Shown here piece by piece: positions 6,795-29,000 of a stretch of 64,000 bases of DNA. The stretch comes from Nitrospirota bacterium (GTDB lineage: Bacteria; Nitrospirota; Thermodesulfovibrionia; Thermodesulfovibrionales; UBA6898), in NCBI GenBank assembly GCA_016214855.1, contig JACRMT010000004.1:558001-622000 (forward strand), read 5' to 3'. The notes beneath the pieces are model-generated. The model had not been told where the DNA came from, ran no database searches, and saw nothing but the letters and a program-made list of their open reading frames with translations. Numbering within the stretch: position 1 is the stretch's first letter; each line of letters opens with the position of its first letter. A program made the translations under genes and the position numbers.

Positions 6795-6848
6795 AACCTG
6801 CTCCTTATTCCTTCAGTCAATAATGCAATTGAATAGCCATAAATCAAT

Positions 6849-6922
6849 AAATCTCCCCTCACCCTCTTTATCAAAGAGGGGCAGAATTCCTCCCTTTGAC
6901 AAAGAGAGGTTAGGAGGGATTA
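6849..6922. repeat. Dispersed two-hairpin palindromic repeat, copy 3
   Basis: This has the same architecture and orientation as the copy at 2159-2231, with one mismatch in the second hairpin (aaagagagg). It lies between hdrC and folD, upstream of the hdr genes. The rest of this 227-nt gap is AT-rich and may hold the hdr promoter, but no convincing -35/-10 pair was chosen. Confidence 0.83.
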
Positions 6923-7021
6923 TACAAATTAATTCCAGCCTTATTTACTGTTATAATTATAATCGTTGAATATTCTTTTTTCCATTTAAGATTATTTCAT
7001 GAATGCCTGCAACTGGTTAAC

Positions 7022-7927
7022 CTACAGCCCTGCTGCCGATTTCGCAGACTTAACGGTATTCTTCATCAGCATCGTAATCGTCATCGGTCCTACGCCGCCC
7101 GGCACAGGAGTGATCGCTCCTGCAATCTCCTTTGCAGCATCGAAATCAACATCGCCCTTGAGGATCGGGATCATCTTGCCGGTCTTCTCGCTCATCTTCT
7201 CGCCAACGCGGTTCACACCGACATCGATCACGCATGCACCGGGCTTGATCCACTCGGGCTTTACAAGGCCGGGTACACCAGCAGCCACAATAAGGATGTC
7301 AGCACGTTTGCAGTGCAGATCAAGATTCTTGGTGCCGGTATGAACGATCGTGACCGTAGAGTTTGCGCCCCTTCCCTTCTGGAGCATGATGTTGGCGATC
7401 GGCTTGCCGACGATGTTCGAGCGGCCGACAACAACAACCTCAGCGCCTGAGGTCTCAAAGCCTGAGCGGACGATCAGTTCCTGTATGCCTGCAGGTGTGC
7501 AGGGCAGGAACTTCACCTCGCTGCCGCCGATCATAAGGCGGCCCACATTGACCGGGTGGAAGGCATCAACATCCTTGTCAGGGTTGATCGCATTGAGCAC
7601 CTTCTTCTCGTCCACATGTTTCGGCAGAGGAAGCTGAACGAGAATGCCATGGATCTTGGGGTCGTCATTATATTTTGCGATCAGCTTCAGAAGGTCGGCC
7701 TCAGAGATGTCCTCAGGCTGGCTGTCCTGGATCGAATGAAACCCTATCTCGTGCGCTGCCTTCTGCTTTGCCGTGACATAACTGACAGACGCAGGATTAT
7801 GACCGACCAGTATCGTGACCAGCCCCGGTACCACTCCAGACTTCGACTGCATCTCTGCAACTTCCTTCTTCAGCTCTTCCCGTATCTGTGCGGCGACTTC
7901 AGTGCCGCTGATGATCTTTGCACTCAT
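7022..7927 (-). CDS. folD: FolD, methylene-THF dehydrogenase/methenyl-THF cyclohydrolase
   Basis: This 301-residue bifunctional enzyme interconverts methylene-, methenyl- and formyl-THF, the step before MetF in the methyl branch. Family motifs are clear: YVTAKQKAA with the catalytic Lys near residue 54, QLPLPKH near 98, DVDAFHP near 121, the Rossmann GRSNIVGKP near 168 and TPVPGGVGP near 268. The ATG at 7927 has an AGGAGG site seven bases upstream. Its place upstream of hdrCBA-mvhD-metVF suggests co-expression for one-carbon metabolism. Confidence 0.95.
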   Translation of the reverse strand: MSAKIISGTEVAAQIREELKKEVAEMQSKSGVVPGLVTILVGHNPASVSYVTAKQKAAHEIGFHSIQDSQPEDISEADLLKLIAKYNDDPKIHGILVQLPLPKHVDEKKVLNAINPDKDVDAFHPVNVGRLMIGGSEVKFLPCTPAGIQELIVRSGFETSGAEVVVVGRSNIVGKPIANIMLQKGRGANSTVTIVHTGTKNLDLHCKRADILIVAAGVPGLVKPEWIKPGACVIDVGVNRVGEKMSEKTGKMIPILKGDVDFDAAKEIAGAITPVPGGVGPMTITMLMKNTVKSAKSAAGL

Positions 7928-17333: not shown

Positions 17334-17405
17334 GATCACTCCTTAATGTTTCGTTATGGTATCGAGAGAATTCCTATAAGTGCATAGACTGGCGGACCTA
17401 TTCTT

Positions 17406-17482
17406 AAATCTCCCCTCAACCCCTCTTTTCCAAAGAGGGGAATATTGCCTCCCTTTAGCAAAGGGAGGACAGGAGGGATTTA
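17406..17482. repeat. Dispersed two-hairpin palindromic repeat, copy 4
   Basis: This has the same layout as the copies at 2159 and 6849: aaatctcccc, cccctctttt/aaagagggg hairpin, cctcccttt/aaagggagg hairpin and ggagggattt. It lies between xerC and hslV. The remainder of this 211-nt gap shows nothing clear. Confidence 0.85.
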
Positions 17483-17544
17483 ATAATTGAATGTTTTCAT
17501 GCATATGAGCTTGTTAGTAGTATATAACAAAACTCCTCCGGACT

Positions 17545-18426: not shown

Positions 18427-19742
18427 GCCGCATGCACCTGCAGAAGATAATTCCCCCATGCCTCCAGTGCCTGTTCAGCAATTCTTGCCTTCTTGAGCTT
18501 CTTGTCTCTCATTCGCTGCAGACCTTCCGATGCAGGGAAAAGGCCGAAATTGATATTGCTCGGCTGAAAATGTTTACTCTCTGATTCCGTAATATGCCTG
18601 ATCAAGGCTCCATGCGCAGAGTATGGCGGCACCTCCGGAATTATTTTCCCCTGCAATCTGAGCGCAGCATTGACTCCGGCAATAAGACCCATGGCGGTTG
18701 ATTCGATGTATCCCTCAACCCCGGTGATCTGGCCGGCAAGAAAAAGATCGGAGCGCTGCCTGAACGAGAGGTCTTTATTGAGAAGTACGGGTGCATTGAT
18801 GAACGTATTCCTGTGAATGCTGCCGTATCTCAGAAAATCAGCAGCTTCAAGCCCGGGAATCATGCTGAAGACCCTCTTCTGCTCAGGCCATGTAAGACGT
18901 GTCTGGAATCCGACCATATTATAGGCCGTCATCTCCCTGTTCTCGGTTCTCAGTTGAACAACCGCATAGGGATCTTTTTCGGTCCTGGGGTCAGGCAGGC
19001 CAACCGGCTTCATCGGCCCATACCGCATAGTATCAACGCCCCGCGATGCCATCACTTCAATCGGCATGCAGCCTTCGAAAACGCTCTTCTCTTCAAAACC
19101 TTTCGGATTTACCTTCTCCGCAGCCAGGATCTCCTGATAGAACTGCTCATACTCCTCTCTGCTCATAGGGCAGTTAAGATAATCATCGCCGCCTTTTCCA
19201 TAACGCGACATGGCATAGACCTTTGTTCGGTCTATGGAGTCAGCATCAATAATCGGAGCAATAGCGTCATAAAAGTAGAGATATCCTGCCCCTGTCAGTC
19301 CGGTTAAGGCCTCCGTCATTGCAGGGGAAGTCAGCGGGCCGGTTGCAAGAACTGCGGTCGATCCAGGGAGTGTTCTGACCTCCTCCCTGATGATCGTGAT
19401 ATTCAAATTGTCTGAAAGTTTTTTTGTGATGTATTCCCCAAAAAGGGTTCTGTCAACCGCCAGCGCTGAACCTGCAGGAACCGCTGTTGCCTCGGCCGCC
19501 TCCATGATAAGCGACCCTGCAAGAGAAAGCTCTTTTTTCAGAAGGCCAGGTCCGCTGTGGGGATCATTTGATCTCAGGGAATTGGAGCAGACGAGCTCTC
19601 CGAGGCTCGATGTGGCATGCGCCTCGGTCATCTTTTCAGGCCGCATCTCATAAAGGCGCACCTTCACGCCCCTCTTCGCAGCCTGCCACGCAGCCTCTGC
19701 GCCTGCGAGCCCCCCGCCGATCACGATTAGATGATCAGACAT
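18423..19742 (-). CDS. trmFO: TrmFO, folate-dependent tRNA (uracil-54-C5)-methyltransferase
   Basis: This 439-residue FAD enzyme uses methylene-THF to form T54 in tRNA. It begins MSDHLIVIGGGLAGAEAAW, the GIDA-like FAD-binding fold. It also shows CSNSLRSNDP near residue 52, NCPMSREEYEQF near 200, FEGCMPIEVMASRG near 225 and GQITGVEGYIES near 340. The start at 19742 aligns best with the family; an upstream ATG at 19766 adds eight residues. Its dependence on methylene-THF ties it to the folate genes at the window's left. Confidence 0.93.
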   Translation of the reverse strand: MSDHLIVIGGGLAGAEAAWQAAKRGVKVRLYEMRPEKMTEAHATSSLGELVCSNSLRSNDPHSGPGLLKKELSLAGSLIMEAAEATAVPAGSALAVDRTLFGEYITKKLSDNLNITIIREEVRTLPGSTAVLATGPLTSPAMTEALTGLTGAGYLYFYDAIAPIIDADSIDRTKVYAMSRYGKGGDDYLNCPMSREEYEQFYQEILAAEKVNPKGFEEKSVFEGCMPIEVMASRGVDTMRYGPMKPVGLPDPRTEKDPYAVVQLRTENREMTAYNMVGFQTRLTWPEQKRVFSMIPGLEAADFLRYGSIHRNTFINAPVLLNKDLSFRQRSDLFLAGQITGVEGYIESTAMGLIAGVNAALRLQGKIIPEVPPYSAHGALIRHITESESKHFQPSNINFGLFPASEGLQRMRDKKLKKARIAEQALEAWGNYLLQVHAA

Positions 19743-19798
19743 TTCCATATCCCTATTCAGGAGCATCCATCATAAGAAAAGCAGAGAAATGTCACGTC

Positions 19799-20218
19799 TT
19801 ATTGTTTCATATACGACAGAAGCGCGTTCTTGTAAAGTCCAAAGTCTCCGAGATGTTTTCTCATTATGATTACAACAATTTCTGCATCAACCTTTTCATA
19901 CTGGTGAACAAGCACATTTCTGAATTTGGCCATTTTTTCCATTGTGCCGTATAATTCTTCGCTGATAATATTATTTTCCTGGAGGACCTTGAATGTGTCT
20001 GCATAACTTGACGGAGACCGAAAGCCTTTGTCAGCGACGATGTGATTTGCAATATCAGCACAGGTCTCTATCATCATCTGGAGTGTTCTTTCGATAACAC
20101 GCTGTGCTTTCCACTCCCCGCGATACCGCTCAGGGGTAATATCCGAATATTCATTGATTTGTTCAATGTAGGTCTCCAGTTCGGAGATCTTTCTAAGAAT
20201 CAACGACTTGTCAACCAA
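19799..20218 (-). CDS. hepT: HepT-like toxin (DUF86 family)
   Basis: This 139-residue helical protein of the HEPN superfamily is the RNase toxin partner of MntA-type antitoxins. The catalytic and modification motif Rx4HxY is present as RNVLVHQY near residue 105. In characterised pairs the antitoxin polyadenylates or AMPylates the tyrosine. The start overlaps the end of the nucleotidyltransferase gene by eight bases, which is typical of co-translated toxin-antitoxin modules. Confidence 0.88.
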   Translation of the reverse strand: MVDKSLILRKISELETYIEQINEYSDITPERYRGEWKAQRVIERTLQMMIETCADIANHIVADKGFRSPSSYADTFKVLQENNIISEELYGTMEKMAKFRNVLVHQYEKVDAEIVVIIMRKHLGDFGLYKNALLSYMKQ

Positions 20219-20633
20219 TGCCGTATCTCCTTTTAAAAAATATGTCTTCCTTTATTCTGAAATCAAAAAATTCCCGCAGTGTCACTGATTCGTAAACATG
20301 GCGCCGGAAGGGCTCCTTGTCGCTAAGGACTACTCTTTTCTGCAGAATCCGTCCCGCAAGGCTGACAGGCGCTGTGTTCAGGATCACCAAGTCAAGCTCG
20401 CCTGTTCCAAGAGCGTCGGTAAGTTTATCGAAAAGCTGCATTTTAAACTCCGCGAGGTCATTTATTTCTTTGATATATACGGCGAGATCCACATCCGAAA
20501 GGGGTTTTATCACTTTGTCGGCAAGCCCGCCGAAAAGATACGCAAAAATAACATCACTATCTTGTTCAAGCACCCTTGCAGCATCAGGGAGCTTCGTCAA
20601 AATATCAGGCGGCAACTTTTCGATCTTTATCAT
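20211..20633 (-). CDS. mntA: MntA-like nucleotidyltransferase antitoxin
   Basis: This 140-residue minimal nucleotidyltransferase is the antitoxin of the HepT/MntA system, which silences HepT by adding AMP to its tyrosine. The canonical GSx10DxD motif appears as GGLADKVIKPLSDVDLAVY: spacing and both aspartates are kept, but Ser is replaced by Gly. It lies directly upstream of hepT and overlaps it. Whether the Gly variant retains activity is open. Confidence 0.87.
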   Translation of the reverse strand: MIKIEKLPPDILTKLPDAARVLEQDSDVIFAYLFGGLADKVIKPLSDVDLAVYIKEINDLAEFKMQLFDKLTDALGTGELDLVILNTAPVSLAGRILQKRVVLSDKEPFRRHVYESVTLREFFDFRIKEDIFFKRRYGIG

Positions 20634-20775
20634 GGCCTCAATATCCTCATCCTCCGAATCACTGCCCTATTATAGGCCTTTTGCCGGTTTTTCTGAAGAA
20701 AAAAGAAGATAAAATGCATGGCAAGGCCGATTTATTAAGACACCTTTTCAAGCCGCTCCGCCTGAACATCGGAAC

Positions 20776-21117
20776 TCAGGCAAGCGAAATGACTATCATT
20801 TTATTTTTTGCATCCCATTCCGCAGTGTAATTGACCTTTTTTGAGAAGTCGATGCCGTAATAGTTGAGAAACGCTACTGCTGCGATAAATCCTGCTGATT
20901 TCTTTAGCTGCAGTTTGTAAGAACCCTCTTCCTTATCGCTGGTCAGCTTAATGCCTATCTTTTTGTCAGCTTTGTCATAATAAAATACGGCAAATTTATA
21001 CTTTTCAAGCTCGAACATTGTAATGGCACCACTGGTAAAACCTATAGTCCCATTTTTTCGGATTGATACTTTTGCCGCTGAAGCTGTTCCTTTTTTTATA
21101 AATTTTTCAAAAGCCAT
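20776..21117 (-). CDS. Hypothetical protein, 113 residues
   Basis: I do not recognise this family. The product starts MAFEKFIKKGTASAAKVSIR, has no signal peptide or membrane segment, is lysine-rich and alternates predicted beta strands (SIRKNGTIGFTSGA, FAVFYYDKADKKIGIKL) with a short helix near residue 75. An AAGGAG site lies ten bases before the ATG, and codon use fits the bacterial host. It may be a small DNA- or RNA-binding protein, but nothing in the sequence proves it. Confidence 0.6.
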   Translation of the reverse strand: MAFEKFIKKGTASAAKVSIRKNGTIGFTSGAITMFELEKYKFAVFYYDKADKKIGIKLTSDKEEGSYKLQLKKSAGFIAAVAFLNYYGIDFSKKVNYTAEWDAKNKMIVISLA

Positions 21118-21237
21118 AGAAATGGGTCTCCTTCAGTGTGTTTTTCTCTATATTACATGAGGCTTTCTTTGCAAGCAAACAGTAATTAACATCCTATGGC
21201 CTAAACGCAGCCTATCTATGAATATAGAGGAGCTTTA

Positions 21238-23004
21238 ATGATTACAGCAGGATGCGAAATACAAAGCTGGACAGTAGACGCTGTATGCGCAACAGAAAGA
21301 GAACTTAGAGAAAACAAAGGTGCTGTATGCAAGAGTGCAGAGTCATGCCCCTGTCTTCGATTAACAACACCAGCACCCTCAAGAACTTTAAAATCAGGCG
21401 GAAGAATCGCAGCAACCTCAGTAGCAGAACCAGCATATGCAGAAGTATTTGACAATTCAGCAAACATATATGATCACATCAGAGTCACACTAAACTGGGA
21501 CAGAAACAAATTCAAAAGCTGCATGCCAACAGGATACGAATCAGGAATATTCTACTATCCAATGGCCGACACAACATCACTGATAAGCGTCGGATGTTCA
21601 ATAAACCCAACAGCAGGAACAGTATCCTGCGTAAACGGCCTAGCAAAAGAACTAGGATTTGGAAACTTACAGATATCAAATATAATAAGTGATGATACAG
21701 CATATCTTGACGAAACATACAACGCTCAGGCGGTCATTACTAAATCAGGTCCTGAAAAGATGTGCCTCCAATATTTTGTTTACAAAGGAACTCCTGAACA
21801 AGGAATACTAAAGATAGGACCTAAGAATTTAGAAGTCGTACAAACATACTCAAGTCAAGAACTCCTAATACCCATTGGACAAATGACAGCAGACTTCCTT
21901 GGTGCAGGAACGCCATATACAAAATCAGTATTAAATAATAATGATGTAACAACACCTTTTACAGTTGTTGATTCAGTTGACACAGGATCACAGAGCGGAG
22001 GAACATTAGCAATAACCTTCCTAGATGATGGTGATAAAAATATTAATTGTGTTGATGGAAAAGACAAAGTTAAATTTGGAACAAATACTGAATTTGTACA
22101 ATTTACTTGTACAAATAATAAATTCACAGATGGACTTAGAACAGTAGCAATACAAAGTATAAAAATGCCTGATACTTTTAAACAGAGCGAGTTTACCTTA
22201 AGTTATAATTTTGGATCAGCAGCAACCGATACTAGAAATGAACAGCAGATGACAATAGTTGTAAAAGCAGGACTTCCAAATAAACTAACCCAATCATGCG
22301 ACGTTCCTCAACTAATACCCGAAACAAGTGCGGGCGCAAAAGCAATCAAACAATTTATGTTATACAGAAACAAACCATCAACACCATGTCCCGAAACAGA
22401 AATAGGTGACGAAACTAATAAGAAACTAATCACACAAGACTGTGCATGCTCAAACATAGCATGCAAAAAAGGACAATCCTGCTACAGACAAACAGCAGGA
22501 GCAGCACCAATATGCGTGGGAGCAGCGACAACACCATTTGGAAGTTGTGTACAAAATGGGATGAGCTGTGAAACGCAAATAGATGCGATTAATAAATGTG
22601 ATACTTCAACAATAACTCCTTTAGGTTCAAATGGGTGTGCTGCTGACAAAGTTTGCTGCAGTATCGTTCCATCATGTAATAACGCAATAACTTGGGGAGG
22701 ATGTTATAACACATGTCAAACAGGTACGATAGAGATAACAGGCATAAATCCTACACTAGCAGGGCATGTAGGATGTTCATCAGGAAAAACATGTTGCACA
22801 AAACTAACAACAGGAACACAACCTGTATCTCCGGTAGCACAATTAAACGGAAAATGTGGAGCATCATCAACACCAGATATAGGAACTTGTAAAACTGAAT
22901 GTGCATCTGGCGAGTATGATATATCTTCGTCCATTGATTCTAAGGGTAAGAAATGTGTTTCAGGATATTGCTGTTATAAATTATTATTTAGAATACAATC
23001 TTAA
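21238..23004 (+). CDS. Cysteine-rich secreted-type protein, archaeal-like, probably 5'-truncated
   Basis: This 588-residue product has no recognisable enzyme domain. The first 380 residues look like beta-rich extracellular domains with scattered cysteines. From about residue 400 come tandem cysteine-rich modules with a recurring shape: C...C...(S/D/V)G-x-x-CC, ending in ADKVCC, SGKTCC and SGYCCY. Such repeats are common in large surface proteins of DPANN archaea. No signal peptide is present, and the frame extends a few codons upstream of the ATG to a TAA, so the N-terminus was probably lost at the island boundary. An AGGAG sits upstream of the ATG. Codon use differs sharply from the flanking genes. 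Confidence 0.65.
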   Translation: MITAGCEIQSWTVDAVCATERELRENKGAVCKSAESCPCLRLTTPAPSRTLKSGGRIAATSVAEPAYAEVFDNSANIYDHIRVTLNWDRNKFKSCMPTGYESGIFYYPMADTTSLISVGCSINPTAGTVSCVNGLAKELGFGNLQISNIISDDTAYLDETYNAQAVITKSGPEKMCLQYFVYKGTPEQGILKIGPKNLEVVQTYSSQELLIPIGQMTADFLGAGTPYTKSVLNNNDVTTPFTVVDSVDTGSQSGGTLAITFLDDGDKNINCVDGKDKVKFGTNTEFVQFTCTNNKFTDGLRTVAIQSIKMPDTFKQSEFTLSYNFGSAATDTRNEQQMTIVVKAGLPNKLTQSCDVPQLIPETSAGAKAIKQFMLYRNKPSTPCPETEIGDETNKKLITQDCACSNIACKKGQSCYRQTAGAAPICVGAATTPFGSCVQNGMSCETQIDAINKCDTSTITPLGSNGCAADKVCCSIVPSCNNAITWGGCYNTCQTGTIEITGINPTLAGHVGCSSGKTCCTKLTTGTQPVSPVAQLNGKCGASSTPDIGTCKTECASGEYDISSSIDSKGKKCVSGYCCYKLLFRIQS

Positions 23005-23667
23005 CAAAGTAGCATATTTTTCTTTAGGAAATTCTTTATTTAATTCTTTTAATAAAGGTAACCCTTTATCTTTTTGTCCAGAATTAATATATGTACTTGC
23101 TAATTGATTTAACGCTTTTTCTTTTTCTTGAGGTTTGACTTTTATCCTATTTTCTCTAATTAGATTAATCAAATATTCCGAAGTTCTTATAGACTCTTGT
23201 TTATCAAAATTATATTGTAACTCAGCTTTATGAAAATATAAATTAAAATTAGAAGGGTCAAGCTTAATCAACGAATCATATTCTTTTATTTTTTGTTGGT
23301 ATTCGTTTTCTTTTGTTAATCCTGCTCCTACATAGTTGTTTATTGTGTGATCTCTATTTGCTTGGTCTATTCCGTTGATGTGTCCTTGGTATCCATTTTG
23401 ATTTACTATCGTGTTTCCCGATACATTATATGTCTCGCCAGTTCTTGGGTTGTGTACTGTTTGCATTCCGTTTTGGTTTTGAAGTATCATGCTTTCAGTT
23501 CTCCCATTATTTTGTATTTGAACGGCTCTTGTGTCAACTGCGTTTGCGTTTGTATGTATTCCAAGTGCCATGACTACTCCTGCTGCCATTACTCCAATTT
23601 TTCTCATTAGTCCTGGCTTTTTCTCGACTTTTTTATACTCTTTTATTGTGTCGTCTTCTATTCCCAT
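22984..23667 (-). CDS. Small exported TPR protein in the AT-rich island
   Basis: The product has 227 residues if started at MGIEDDTIKEYKK. A signal-like segment (MRKIGVMAAGVVMALGIHTNANA) precedes an Asn/Gln-rich stretch (QIQNNGRTES, NTIVNQNGYQG) and about three TPR-like helical pairs from residue 110. The reading frame continues another 161 codons upstream into differently composed, Ser/Leu-rich sequence that does not look like one protein with it. The internal start is therefore preferred, although no clear ribosome-binding site precedes it. It overlaps the end of the converging cysteine-rich gene by 21 bases. No close function can be named. Confidence 0.55.
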   Translation of the reverse strand: MGIEDDTIKEYKKVEKKPGLMRKIGVMAAGVVMALGIHTNANAVDTRAVQIQNNGRTESMILQNQNGMQTVHNPRTGETYNVSGNTIVNQNGYQGHINGIDQANRDHTINNYVGAGLTKENEYQQKIKEYDSLIKLDPSNFNLYFHKAELQYNFDKQESIRTSEYLINLIRENRIKVKPQEKEKALNQLASTYINSGQKDKGLPLLKELNKEFPKEKYATLLRLYSK

Positions 23668-24193
23668 TTTCTGGGAACAAGCAATAGTGTCCACATCTGT
23701 TAATGCGGAAGATTGATGGGATAGTGGAAAGAAAGACAGCAAAAAAGGCGGGGCTCGGCCAGAGTCACTGCCTGAGCAGTGCATCCCGCCGCCTCCAGGT
23801 GCTGACAGGGCCTGCAGGCTACCATAGAAGCCCGGAATTCTTATGACCCTGTCAAGATATTTCAGGATGTATTTCAAAAAGGAAATGAACGCTGCTGAGT
23901 GTGCTGACATTGAAAGGTACAGGCGCAACCTTGCCCTGATCTTTTCTTTTTTTTCTGTTGAGGCCAGGGTCATTAAATGGAATCTTCTGGAAAGGCTTGC
24001 AAGATGAAGAGAATACTTGTCAGGCTTGGAGGATTTGCTGCAGTAATTCTTCATTGCTGCAGAACTTTGAATTGCCCTTGGATCCCTCTCAGCCATTAGC
24101 CCTCCTTGTATCGGAAACCTGTTAAAATTATATGCAATCCTCCGCCACAAATCAACAGCAGCTTTGTCAGTTCCTTTGGGTCGTATATCAGCC
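23668..24193. other. Spacer of about 525 bases with no gene I can support
   Basis: Composition returns toward the bacterial host. A minus-strand frame is open through the whole stretch, including ATG 24096 with a strong AGGAGG site (MAERDPRAIQSS...). A plus-strand 54-residue frame starts near 23850 (MTLSRYFRMYFKK...). Neither resembles a family I know, and both cannot be real along their full length. A CACTGC-ctga-GCAGTG hairpin lies near 23765. Decayed coding sequence at the island edge is the simplest view. Confidence 0.4.
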
Positions 24194-25859
<1,666 letters not shown>

Positions 25860-25875
<16 letters not shown>

Positions 25876-26015
25876 ACGTTGTGTTCACGATGGGTATCAA
25901 TCAATATTCTTGTCCCAGCGTTCTCACGCAATCTCCCAACGGGGCTCTTTCTACGTGCTGTAAGCTGCCTCAAGTCTTCAAAATGCCTTTTTGCTTTCTT
26001 AAGGTCAGGTTTCAT
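25860..26015 (-). CDS. Possible small basic protein, 51 residues
   Basis: The frame starts MKPDLKKAKRHFEDLRQLTA and stays open to a TAA that overlaps the DUF4160 start region. It is strongly basic (many Lys and Arg) and helical at the N-terminus. No clear ribosome-binding site precedes the ATG and no family is recognised. The overlap with the next gene is the main argument that it is real. It may also be a remnant of a longer gene. Confidence 0.35.
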
Positions 26016-26076
26016 GGCTTAAATATATCACAAACAGAGGAGAGGAGCAAACAAGACCATCTACAACCTGACAATC

Positions 26077-29000
26077 CTATTTACTGACAACAGATGAGCT
26101 TTTTTTGAACTTTCTTCCTTTCCAGATCAGATAGATGGCAGGATAGATCGTAAGCTCAAGGATCTCAGAAGTAACAACCCCGCCGACCATAGGCGCGGCA
26201 ATGCGCTTCATGATGTCAGAGCCTGCGCCGTGGCTGAACAGGATAGGAACAAGGCCGGCAAGAATGACGCCGACTGTCATAAGCTTGGGTCTGATCCTCT
26301 TGACCGCGCCGAACATGATGGCATCTCTGAGATCCTGCTCGGTGTTCAGTTTTCCATCTTTTTTCCATTTTTCATAGGCAAGGTCAAGGTACAGGAGCAT
26401 CACAACGCCGGTCTCAGCATCAAGGCCTGCCAGGGCGATCATGCCGACCCAGACAGCAATGCTCATGTTATATCCCAGAAAATAGAGCAGCCAGAAAGAC
26501 CCGACAAGGGAGAACGGCACTGCGAGCAGAATAATCGTGGTCTTTACTGTTGACTTCGTATTCAGATAGATAAGCACAAAGATGATAAAGAGCGTGAGCG
26601 GGATTACGGTCTTCAGCCGCTCCTGCGTCTTGAGCATATATTCATATTCTCCGCTCCACTGAAGACTGTAACCTGCAGGAAGCTTCACCTGCTTTTCGAC
26701 GCTCTGTTTTGCCTCTTCCACATAGCCGCCGACATCGCGGCCGGAAAAGTCGATATACACATAGTTGGCGAGCTGGCCCTCTTCGCTCTTGATCGATGTC
26801 GGTCCCTGCACAATTGCGATATCCGCAATCTCACCAAGGGGTATATGGGCAATCCCTGACTTCTGCGATGCCTCTGCATTCATGCCTGAAGAACCGGCAA
26901 GAGATACCGGTACAAAAATGCGTTTGAGCTTCTCAATATCGTTCTGCAGTTCCCTGGCATAGCGCACATGCACAGGATATCGTTCCCTGCCTTCAACCGT
27001 AACAGTCAGGTTCATGCCGCCTAACGCAGCTGCAATGACTGTTTGCACATCGTCTATGGACAGTCCATACCGTGCAATTTCTTCCCTTTTCGGTTTAATG
27101 TCAAGGAAATAGCCGGTCATAACCCGTTCCGCGTACGCGCTGCGAGTACCGGGGACGCCCTTGACAGCGTTCTCAATATCGATAGAGATCTTTTCGATCG
27201 TTGCCAGATCCGGCCCAAGAACCTTTACGCCCACAGGCGTCCTGATTCCTGTTGCAAGCATGTCAAGCCTCGCCTTTATAGGCATGGTGAAAGAATTCGC
27301 AACACCCGGAATCTGGACCGCGTCATTCAGTTCATTCTTCAGTTTTTCAGTGGTCATTCCGGGCCGCCACTCTGATTCAGGCTTCAGATTTATGACCGTC
27401 TCGAACATCTCAAGAGGTGCAGGATCAGTTGCGGTCTCAGCCCTGCCTGCCTTTCCAAAGACCTGCGACACCTCCGGTATCTTTATCAGCAGGCGGTCCT
27501 GGAGCCTGAGAATCTTTGATACCTCAGAGACCGAAGCACCCGGCACTGTTGTCGGCATATAAAAAAGCGTGCCCTCATCAAGGGGCGGCATAAATTCCTT
27601 GCCGAGTTTCATCAGCGGATACACGGTCGCTGCAACGAGCAGCAGCGCAAAAACTATAACAAGCTTAGGGTGTTTCAAAGAAAACATAACGCGCGGCTTG
27701 TACAGTTTTTCGAGAAACCGGATTATCACATTATCGTGCTCAGGCTTTATCTTCCCCCTGATGAACATGGTCATAAGCACCGGGGTCAGGGTGACTGCAA
27801 GAAATGCAGAAAAGAGCATGGCAAAGGTTTTGGTGTAGGCAAGAGGTTTGAAAAGTCGTCCGGCCTGGGCCTCAAGAGTGAAGACCGGAAAAAAGCCGAC
27901 CGTAATTACCAACAGAGAGAAAAACAGCGACGGGCCAACCTCTTTGGAAGCCTCTATGATCACGTCAACCCTGCTGCCTGGTCTGCCCTCGTTCTCCCAC
28001 TCCTCCAGCTTCTTATGCGCATTCTCCACCATGATAATCGAGGCGTCTACCATGGCGCCAACAGCGATCGCAATGCCGCTGAGGCTCATGATGTTCGACG
28101 TAACGCCGAGGTAATACATGCAGATAAAAGAGATGATAATCGCAACAGGAAGAGTCAGGATCACAACAAGCGCGCTCGGCAGATGGAAGAGAAAAACGAT
28201 GCAAACTGCGCTCACGGCAACAGAAAGCTTGATGATCTCCTCTTTCAGGGTATGTATGGATCTGATGATAAGATCAGAACGGTCATAGGTCGTGACAAGC
28301 TTAACACCCTTAGGCAGGGATGGTTTAATATCCTTCTCGATCTTCTCTTTTACACGGTCGATGACCGTGAGCACATTTTCACCGAACCTGACAACCACAA
28401 TGCCGCCTGCGACTTCGCCTTTGCCGTCAAGATCAGCAATGCCCCGTCTCATCTCCGGTCCCAGCTGAACAGAAGCAATATCACGCAGATAGACAGGCGT
28501 TCCCGCGGGCCCCACGCCGACTGAAATCAGTTCAAGGTCCTGAAGGCCTTTCACGTAACCCCTGCCCCGGATCATATATTCAACACCCGACATTTCAAGG
28601 ACCCTTCCCTCAACGTCACGGTTGCTCTTCCTCACCGCTTCCATCACATTCATGATCGATAGGTTATAGGCAGAAAGACGGTTAGGGTCAATATGCACCT
28701 GGTACTGCTTTACAAAACCTCCGATACTGGCAACCTGCGATACGCCGGGAACACTCTCTATCGCCAGCTTGATGTTCCAATCCTGGAGCGACCGCAGTTG
28801 GGAAGGATCATGGTTTCCTGTCTCATCAATCAGAGCATAGGAAAAACCCCACCCAAGGCTTGTGGCATCAGGCCCCAGCACAGGATTCACATCAGCAGGA
28901 AGTTTGGAGCGCACGGACTGAAGATATTCAAGGATACGGCTTCTCGCCCAGTAGATGTCAGTCCCTTCTTCGAAGATCACATAAATGAAAGAACTGCCGA

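Follow-up and report, generated by a model that had tools for sequence, protein, structure and literature searches.

Does an AT-rich stretch in the chromosome of a Nitrospirota bacterium, covering two convergent genes, derive from DPANN archaea, and if so, did it come there by gene transfer or by an error of assembly? A sequence-only reading of the window (the whole analysed stretch of 64,000 nucleotides, positions 558001-622000 of a 907,574-bp contig) had delimited a DPANN-like island at 21195-23690 with both genes of archaeal type, and had offered a chimeric contig as the more cautious explanation. The genome measures 3.3 Mb in 23 contigs and is reported as 100% complete and 0.25% contaminated. 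The two genes do converge as described: Y lies on the forward strand (21205..23004), X on the reverse strand (22984..24096), and their 3' ends overlap by 21 bp.

An AT-rich outlier within an accessory insertion

Both genes lie in 6.4 kb of accessory DNA (about 19743-26107) between core genes, which we take from their sequences to be of hslV, xerC and trmFO type on the left and an RND efflux gene on the right. Of the seven same-genus genomes, G001, G002, G004 and G007 have only 136, 102, 99 and 110 bp, respectively, between the same flanking genes, and their insertion site is thus empty or near-empty; such a short gap was not seen in the other three (G003, G005 and G006). With 19770-26090 as a DNA query against 27 genomes of the family, we found matches only in the host genome and in G016, the latter confined to the neighbouring TPR and DUF2442 genes, parts of which are 78% and 71% identical.

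The rest of the insertion is made of reverse-strand genes. On the left, HepT (19799-20218; 141 bits) and MntA (20211-20633; 71.5 bits) both exceed the NCBIfam cut-off of 60, and a 113-codon ORF without Pfam or NCBIfam match (20776..21117) separates MntA from Y. On the right are a TPR gene (24194-25405) and a DUF2442 gene (25392-25658), both identified with Pfam. An Rfam scan over 19500-26300 returned a single match, under its gathering score. We also considered an integron cassette and rejected it, as the simple core pattern of attC-like sites occurs twice in the whole window and nowhere in 19000-27000. Elsewhere in the window, at 1488-1584, 2156-2233, 6844-6924 and 17405-17509, we noticed a family of repeats about 75-100 bp long, scattered in both orientations and 74-88% alike.

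Composition was scored with a DPANN model built from 14 of the 18 fetched loci that match Y, the four richest in G+C being left out. On this model, whose loci were chosen among the matches to Y so that a score measures likeness to such genomes and makes no unbiased choice among AT-rich organisms, 21220-23619 scored +171, compared with a mean of -145 (sd 38.7, maximum -73) for 88 background stretches of 2,400 bp. When 464 kb of the contig were scored in 2-kb windows (924 in all), the log-likelihood ratio averaged -102.5 (sd 44.0); the top window, 21501-23500, reached +135.1, and the best anywhere else +30.6. Nothing else in these 464 kb stands out as DPANN-like so strongly as the AT-rich stretch. 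Codon use agrees, since the share of AGA and ATA in the gene at 21238-23004 is 0.76, the highest of 334 scored ORFs (median 0.21). In Y, AGA makes up 0.92 of the Arg codons and ATA 0.70 of the Ile codons, compared with 0.14-0.33 and 0.08-0.16, respectively, in trmFO, xerC and the RND gene. The shift to AGA and ATA codons and the AT-rich composition that had first drawn attention to the stretch are thereby borne out.

The proposed boundaries fared less well. The DPANN-like stretch is there, but its left junction lies at 21202-21211, position ~23690 ends neither a gene nor an island, and the insertion extends over about 19743-26107. An island of 2.5 kb with two clean edges had to be dropped because the frame of X runs across the right edge, and because a relative of the entire gene exists in G030, a genome of the same order.

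Gene Y and its archaeal relatives

At the left junction (21202..21211), host-side DNA meets the archaeal-type gene: an in-frame stop (21202-21204) is followed by the residues TQPIY and then EYRG, where an ORF of the DPANN genome G188 reads KPVY before the same EYRG, and the relatives continue upstream. That the larger gene lacks its N-terminus at the left edge, as had been proposed, is confirmed by this stop and by homology to DPANN ORFs that begins right at the junction. Judged from these alignments, Y is cut at ~21204 and lacks the N-terminal two thirds of a giant gene; what is left corresponds to about 600 C-terminal codons of a gene for a DPANN surface protein of ~2,000 residues, in a reading frame intact throughout, with a first ATG at 21238. 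An AGGAG before this ATG is an accident of the codons of Y.

Two parts of Y can be followed in its relatives. First, the conserved EYR domain (21220..21789) holds 24 of the 26 invariant columns of alignment A1 (12 rows, Y included), nine of the 26 being Cys. Second, the tandem Cys modules ending in CC that had been described are present in the Y product (P0001), three in number (22540..22986), and similar C-terminal modules occur in some DPANN relatives and in the G030 piece described below. Y has no Pfam match, and hence neither FN3 nor Ig-like domains were found. Its sequence thus reads as a fragment of a DPANN giant surface protein rather than a whole member, the signal segment and the FN3/Ig-like domains being absent. 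With no export signal left in Y, any role at the surface would have to be explained in some other way. A search of solved structures with Y gave two matches, which we took as chance (E 0.12 and 0.85), and its structure model was unusable (mean pLDDT 32).

As a single-protein query against genome contigs, Y had no match. To place Y among archaea, DPANN genomes were located by an archaeal 16S pattern and then searched directly with Y. One of the 11 genomes of a first DPANN set matched. Across the phylum to which a Woesearchaeota MAG belongs, 37 of 371 genomes did; most of the matches fall in ORFs of 1,500-2,300 residues, and most begin at query residues 1-10. The best match by a wide margin was G188, whose 2,071-residue ORF, reaching the end of its contig, aligns with Y over residues 1564-1943. 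In a tree of 31 rows, built without a bacterial outgroup and midpoint-rooted for drawing only, Y is sister to G188 (support 100/99) within DPANN sequences. The homologues in 37 genomes and this grouping uphold a derivation of the larger gene from DPANN archaea. Identity between Y and its DPANN relatives in A1 is only about 20-30%, so the actual donor lies outside the sample. The family of G188 comprises four genomes, of which G188 itself is the one with a Y homologue; another, G066, is the Woesearchaeota MAG DPANNHV_H2.bin.54.

In the giant proteins (P0003 and the G188 ORF), FN3 and Ig-like domains occupy the part towards the N-terminus, and a search of solved structures with the full-length DPANN profile A2 found only FN3/Ig-type stretches, before position ~531. 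In ten of the DPANN loci (L177-L181, L185 and L188-L191), a membrane-type protein of 265-289 residues is encoded downstream of the giant gene in the same direction, followed by genes that often point back, which makes a conserved locus. Separately, four loci labelled as bacterial (L057, L086, L113 and L121) contain the exact archaeal 16S probe sequence, and are perhaps archaeal contigs binned with bacteria.

We then asked how far such sequences extend among bacteria, by searching 395 genomes of the host phylum with a C-terminal profile and with A2. The C-terminal profile matched only the host genome and a scrap of ~20 residues in G008. A2 matched 265 of the 395 genomes, and the matches listed fall mostly within about model positions 23-330 and are FN3-type; among them, the host genome and G030 (model 1410-1563, E 1.8e-49) are the non-FN3 exceptions. 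As a sign of DPANN DNA elsewhere, the FN3 matches were set aside, those listed being generic FN3-type domains.

The scrap in G008, a genome of the host's family, is a separate observation. An intergenic stretch of ~20 residues, NCFPKGYEDGVFYFPI, on contig C68 (L199 about 7480-7546) aligns with the block in which the DPANN giant protein is most conserved (E 1.5e-8 for one genome; 60-87% identity over 15-23 residues), and its nearest DPANN rows are not G188. It sits between what we take to be a HigBA-like pair and a selD-like gene. It may be a scrap of another transfer, or a chance match over 395 genomes.

Gene X and the recurrence of the pair

X comprises 370 codons and encodes a leader, a signal-like segment and a TPR domain. 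Its composition shifts near codon 143, within one open frame. The leader, the first ~143 codons (23668..24096), has host-like codon use (GC3 0.48, ATA/Ile 0.14), and the passenger (22984..23667; product P0002), with the signal-like segment and the TPR domain, has archaeal-like codon use (GC3 0.23, ATA/Ile 0.65), the Ile counts being small (7 and 17, respectively). A single-sequence structure model of X was confident only in the TPR part, at about 23017-23316 (pLDDT about 90). Upstream of the ATG at 24096, a ribosome-binding site AAGGAGG (24101..24107) and a promoter-like TTGATT-17-TATAAT (24127..24155; 10/12 in a consensus scan) lie on the same strand; the region holds 15 promoter-like sites and shuffled sequences 14.1, so that there is no excess. 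The Asn-rich exported TPR protein that had been read here thus exists as an Asn-rich TPR part behind a signal-like segment, but it is the 3' part of X and not a gene of its own.

The claim that both genes are of DPANN type is accordingly supported for Y but, in this form, not for X. A search of 279 DPANN genomes with P0002 gave two weak matches of TPR type, and the leader is host-like and recurs in G030 and G626. Against plasmids and phages, P0002 gave nothing beyond a weak match to a Methylobacterium TPR protein (E 0.3). Among 18 DPANN loci, 16 of them with downstream genes, we found no P0002-type gene facing the giant gene, which speaks against the archaeal segment proposed below. By its codon use and its position, the TPR part may be of archaeal origin.

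G030 belongs to the same order as the host but to another family. At another locus, on a 131-kb contig, it has a Y-type gene convergent with an X relative whose leader, signal-like segment and TPR domain share one frame of 381 codons. The G030 Y piece also has G188 as its best match by a wide margin (42.8% identity over 180 residues) and is sister to it in a tree of 30 rows (support 100/96). By its alignment, it appears as a different truncated piece of the same archaeal gene. The two X proteins are only 31% identical over their length, a poor fit with a recent common cassette, and their passengers taken alone are barely alike (E 3e-4). Codon use is again uneven: for leader, passenger and Y in turn, AGA/Arg is 0.27, 0.75 and 1.00 (the last from only 3 Arg) and GC3 0.52, 0.32 and 0.43.

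These data bear directly on an assembly or scaffolding chimera, in which a fragment of a DPANN contig would have been built into a bacterial one. Both genomes may be metagenome assemblies, the composition changes sharply, and the stretch is absent from the same-genus genomes, all of which would suit such an error. But the host contig is 907,574 bp long, the frame of X continues through the composition change with a relative of the whole of X in G030, and the same convergent pair stands there on a 131-kb contig. Since an assembly error cannot easily yield the same arrangement of X and Y in two genomes, each time with the fused X opposite part of one and the same archaeal gene, we consider a chimera very unlikely. 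The placement of the larger gene inside a bacterial chromosome is instead supported by the second pair, and its residence there probably reflects gene transfer.

The leader was matched strongly in three of the 395 genomes (the host, G030 and G626), the leader of the window being 36% identical to that of G030 and 39% to that of G626. In G626 (L211 673-1920) it precedes a different passenger, Gly-rich, exported-looking and beta-barrel-looking, with host-like codon use, in a gene adjoining what are presumably HTH and PIN-like genes. In view of these arrangements, the leader could serve as a modular front part of exported proteins. G015, G040 and G558 also gave weak matches to the leader (E 7e-4 to 1e-3), which were set aside; the one in G015 has on its opposite strand a long frame that we take to be DnaX-like.

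A viral or plasmid carrier common to archaea and bacteria, rather than an archaeal chromosome, could also have brought in the DPANN-like part. The accessory hot spot with its toxin-antitoxin genes and the recurrence in two bacterial families would fit, but the searches speak against it. First, Y as a single-protein query had no match in viral contigs, plasmids or phages. Second, profile A1, P0002 and the leader profile had none in viral contigs, and the leader none in plasmids. Third, X and the Y pieces had no PHROG match below E 0.05. Such a carrier therefore seems highly improbable. Neither X nor Y, in the window or in G030, was matched by a PADLOC model at E 0.01.

Origin and significance of the pair

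Taken together, homology up to the junction, the trees, codon use, the empty sites, the pair in G030 and the near-absence from 395 host-phylum genomes support DPANN DNA in bacteria. We consider it likely, on this comparative evidence, that Y is Woesearchaeota-type DPANN DNA of the G188 lineage, resident in a bacterial chromosome and forming with X a recurrent two-gene cassette. In this view, a bacterial leader would have come to stand before an archaeal segment made up of the 3' end of a giant gene and, next to it, a gene for an exported TPR protein. Bacterial signals would now express the leader-TPR fusion, exported or membrane-bound, and Y would be a remnant carried along as a passenger, unless translation from its ATG at 21238 gives a Cys-rich fragment staying in the cell. 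Contact between archaeon and bacterium would be the likeliest source of the DNA.

Did the cassette form once? A single old capture could have built the pair, which then spread in the order as a mobile unit, diverged, and was kept for a function of its own, for example at the surface or in adhesion. The same layout and in-frame join of leader and TPR part in both genomes, the same donor lineage in the trees and a toxin-antitoxin pair beside both copies favour it, as do 45-bp direct repeats that enclose the G030 pair (L208 5457-5501 and 7789-7833), are 89% alike, can fold into a hairpin and have no further copies in the 769 kb of G030 sampled. However, flanking repeats were not found around the pair in the window, and the Y pieces of the two genomes correspond to different stretches of the archaeal gene. 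Moreover, leader and passenger differ in codon use within X in both genomes, which long shared residence should have levelled. Thus, the shared layout favours one capture, and the uneven codon use inside X and the different Y pieces favour two; we regard a single capture as possible, but hold it only tentatively. A further-reaching proposal, which we think doubtful, has bacteria of this order living in contact with DPANN archaea of the G188 lineage and receiving from them, more than once, the end of the giant gene, the leader catching and exporting the passenger so that the bacterium would display or store surface pieces of its partner.

The resident Y bears on whether DPANN archaea live on bacteria, on which studies differ: hosts are argued to be archaea only in the available part of PMC8407114, and are described as archaea and bacteria in that of PMC10936187. 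Archaeal surface-protein DNA in two bacterial families, from one DPANN lineage, would offer an organism pair for testing contact, and one leader stands before different exported-looking passengers in three bacterial families. Among the titles and abstract openings searched, we found no description of the X-Y pair or of DPANN surface-protein DNA in bacteria.

Three known systems invite comparison. First, the type VII toxin-antitoxin system HepT/MntA, both of whose family models are passed by the genes adjoining the cassette, consists of genes separate from X and Y and shares only the neighbourhood with them. Second, the giant FN3/Ig-type surface proteins of Woesearchaeota-type DPANN (P0003 in G173 and the G188 ORF in L175) share with Y the EYR domain with its nine invariant Cys and the codon use, and some members also have C-terminal Cys modules ending in CC, whereas Y lacks the signal segment and the FN3/Ig-like domains, about 1,500 residues in all, and sits in a bacterium. 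Third, gene exchange between DPANN and their neighbours has been used to guess hosts, in that transfer is read as a trace of contact, as we do here; in the available part of that study (PMC8407114), the transfer was into the archaeon, and bacterial hosts were excluded, whereas here the archaeal DNA would be found in bacteria.
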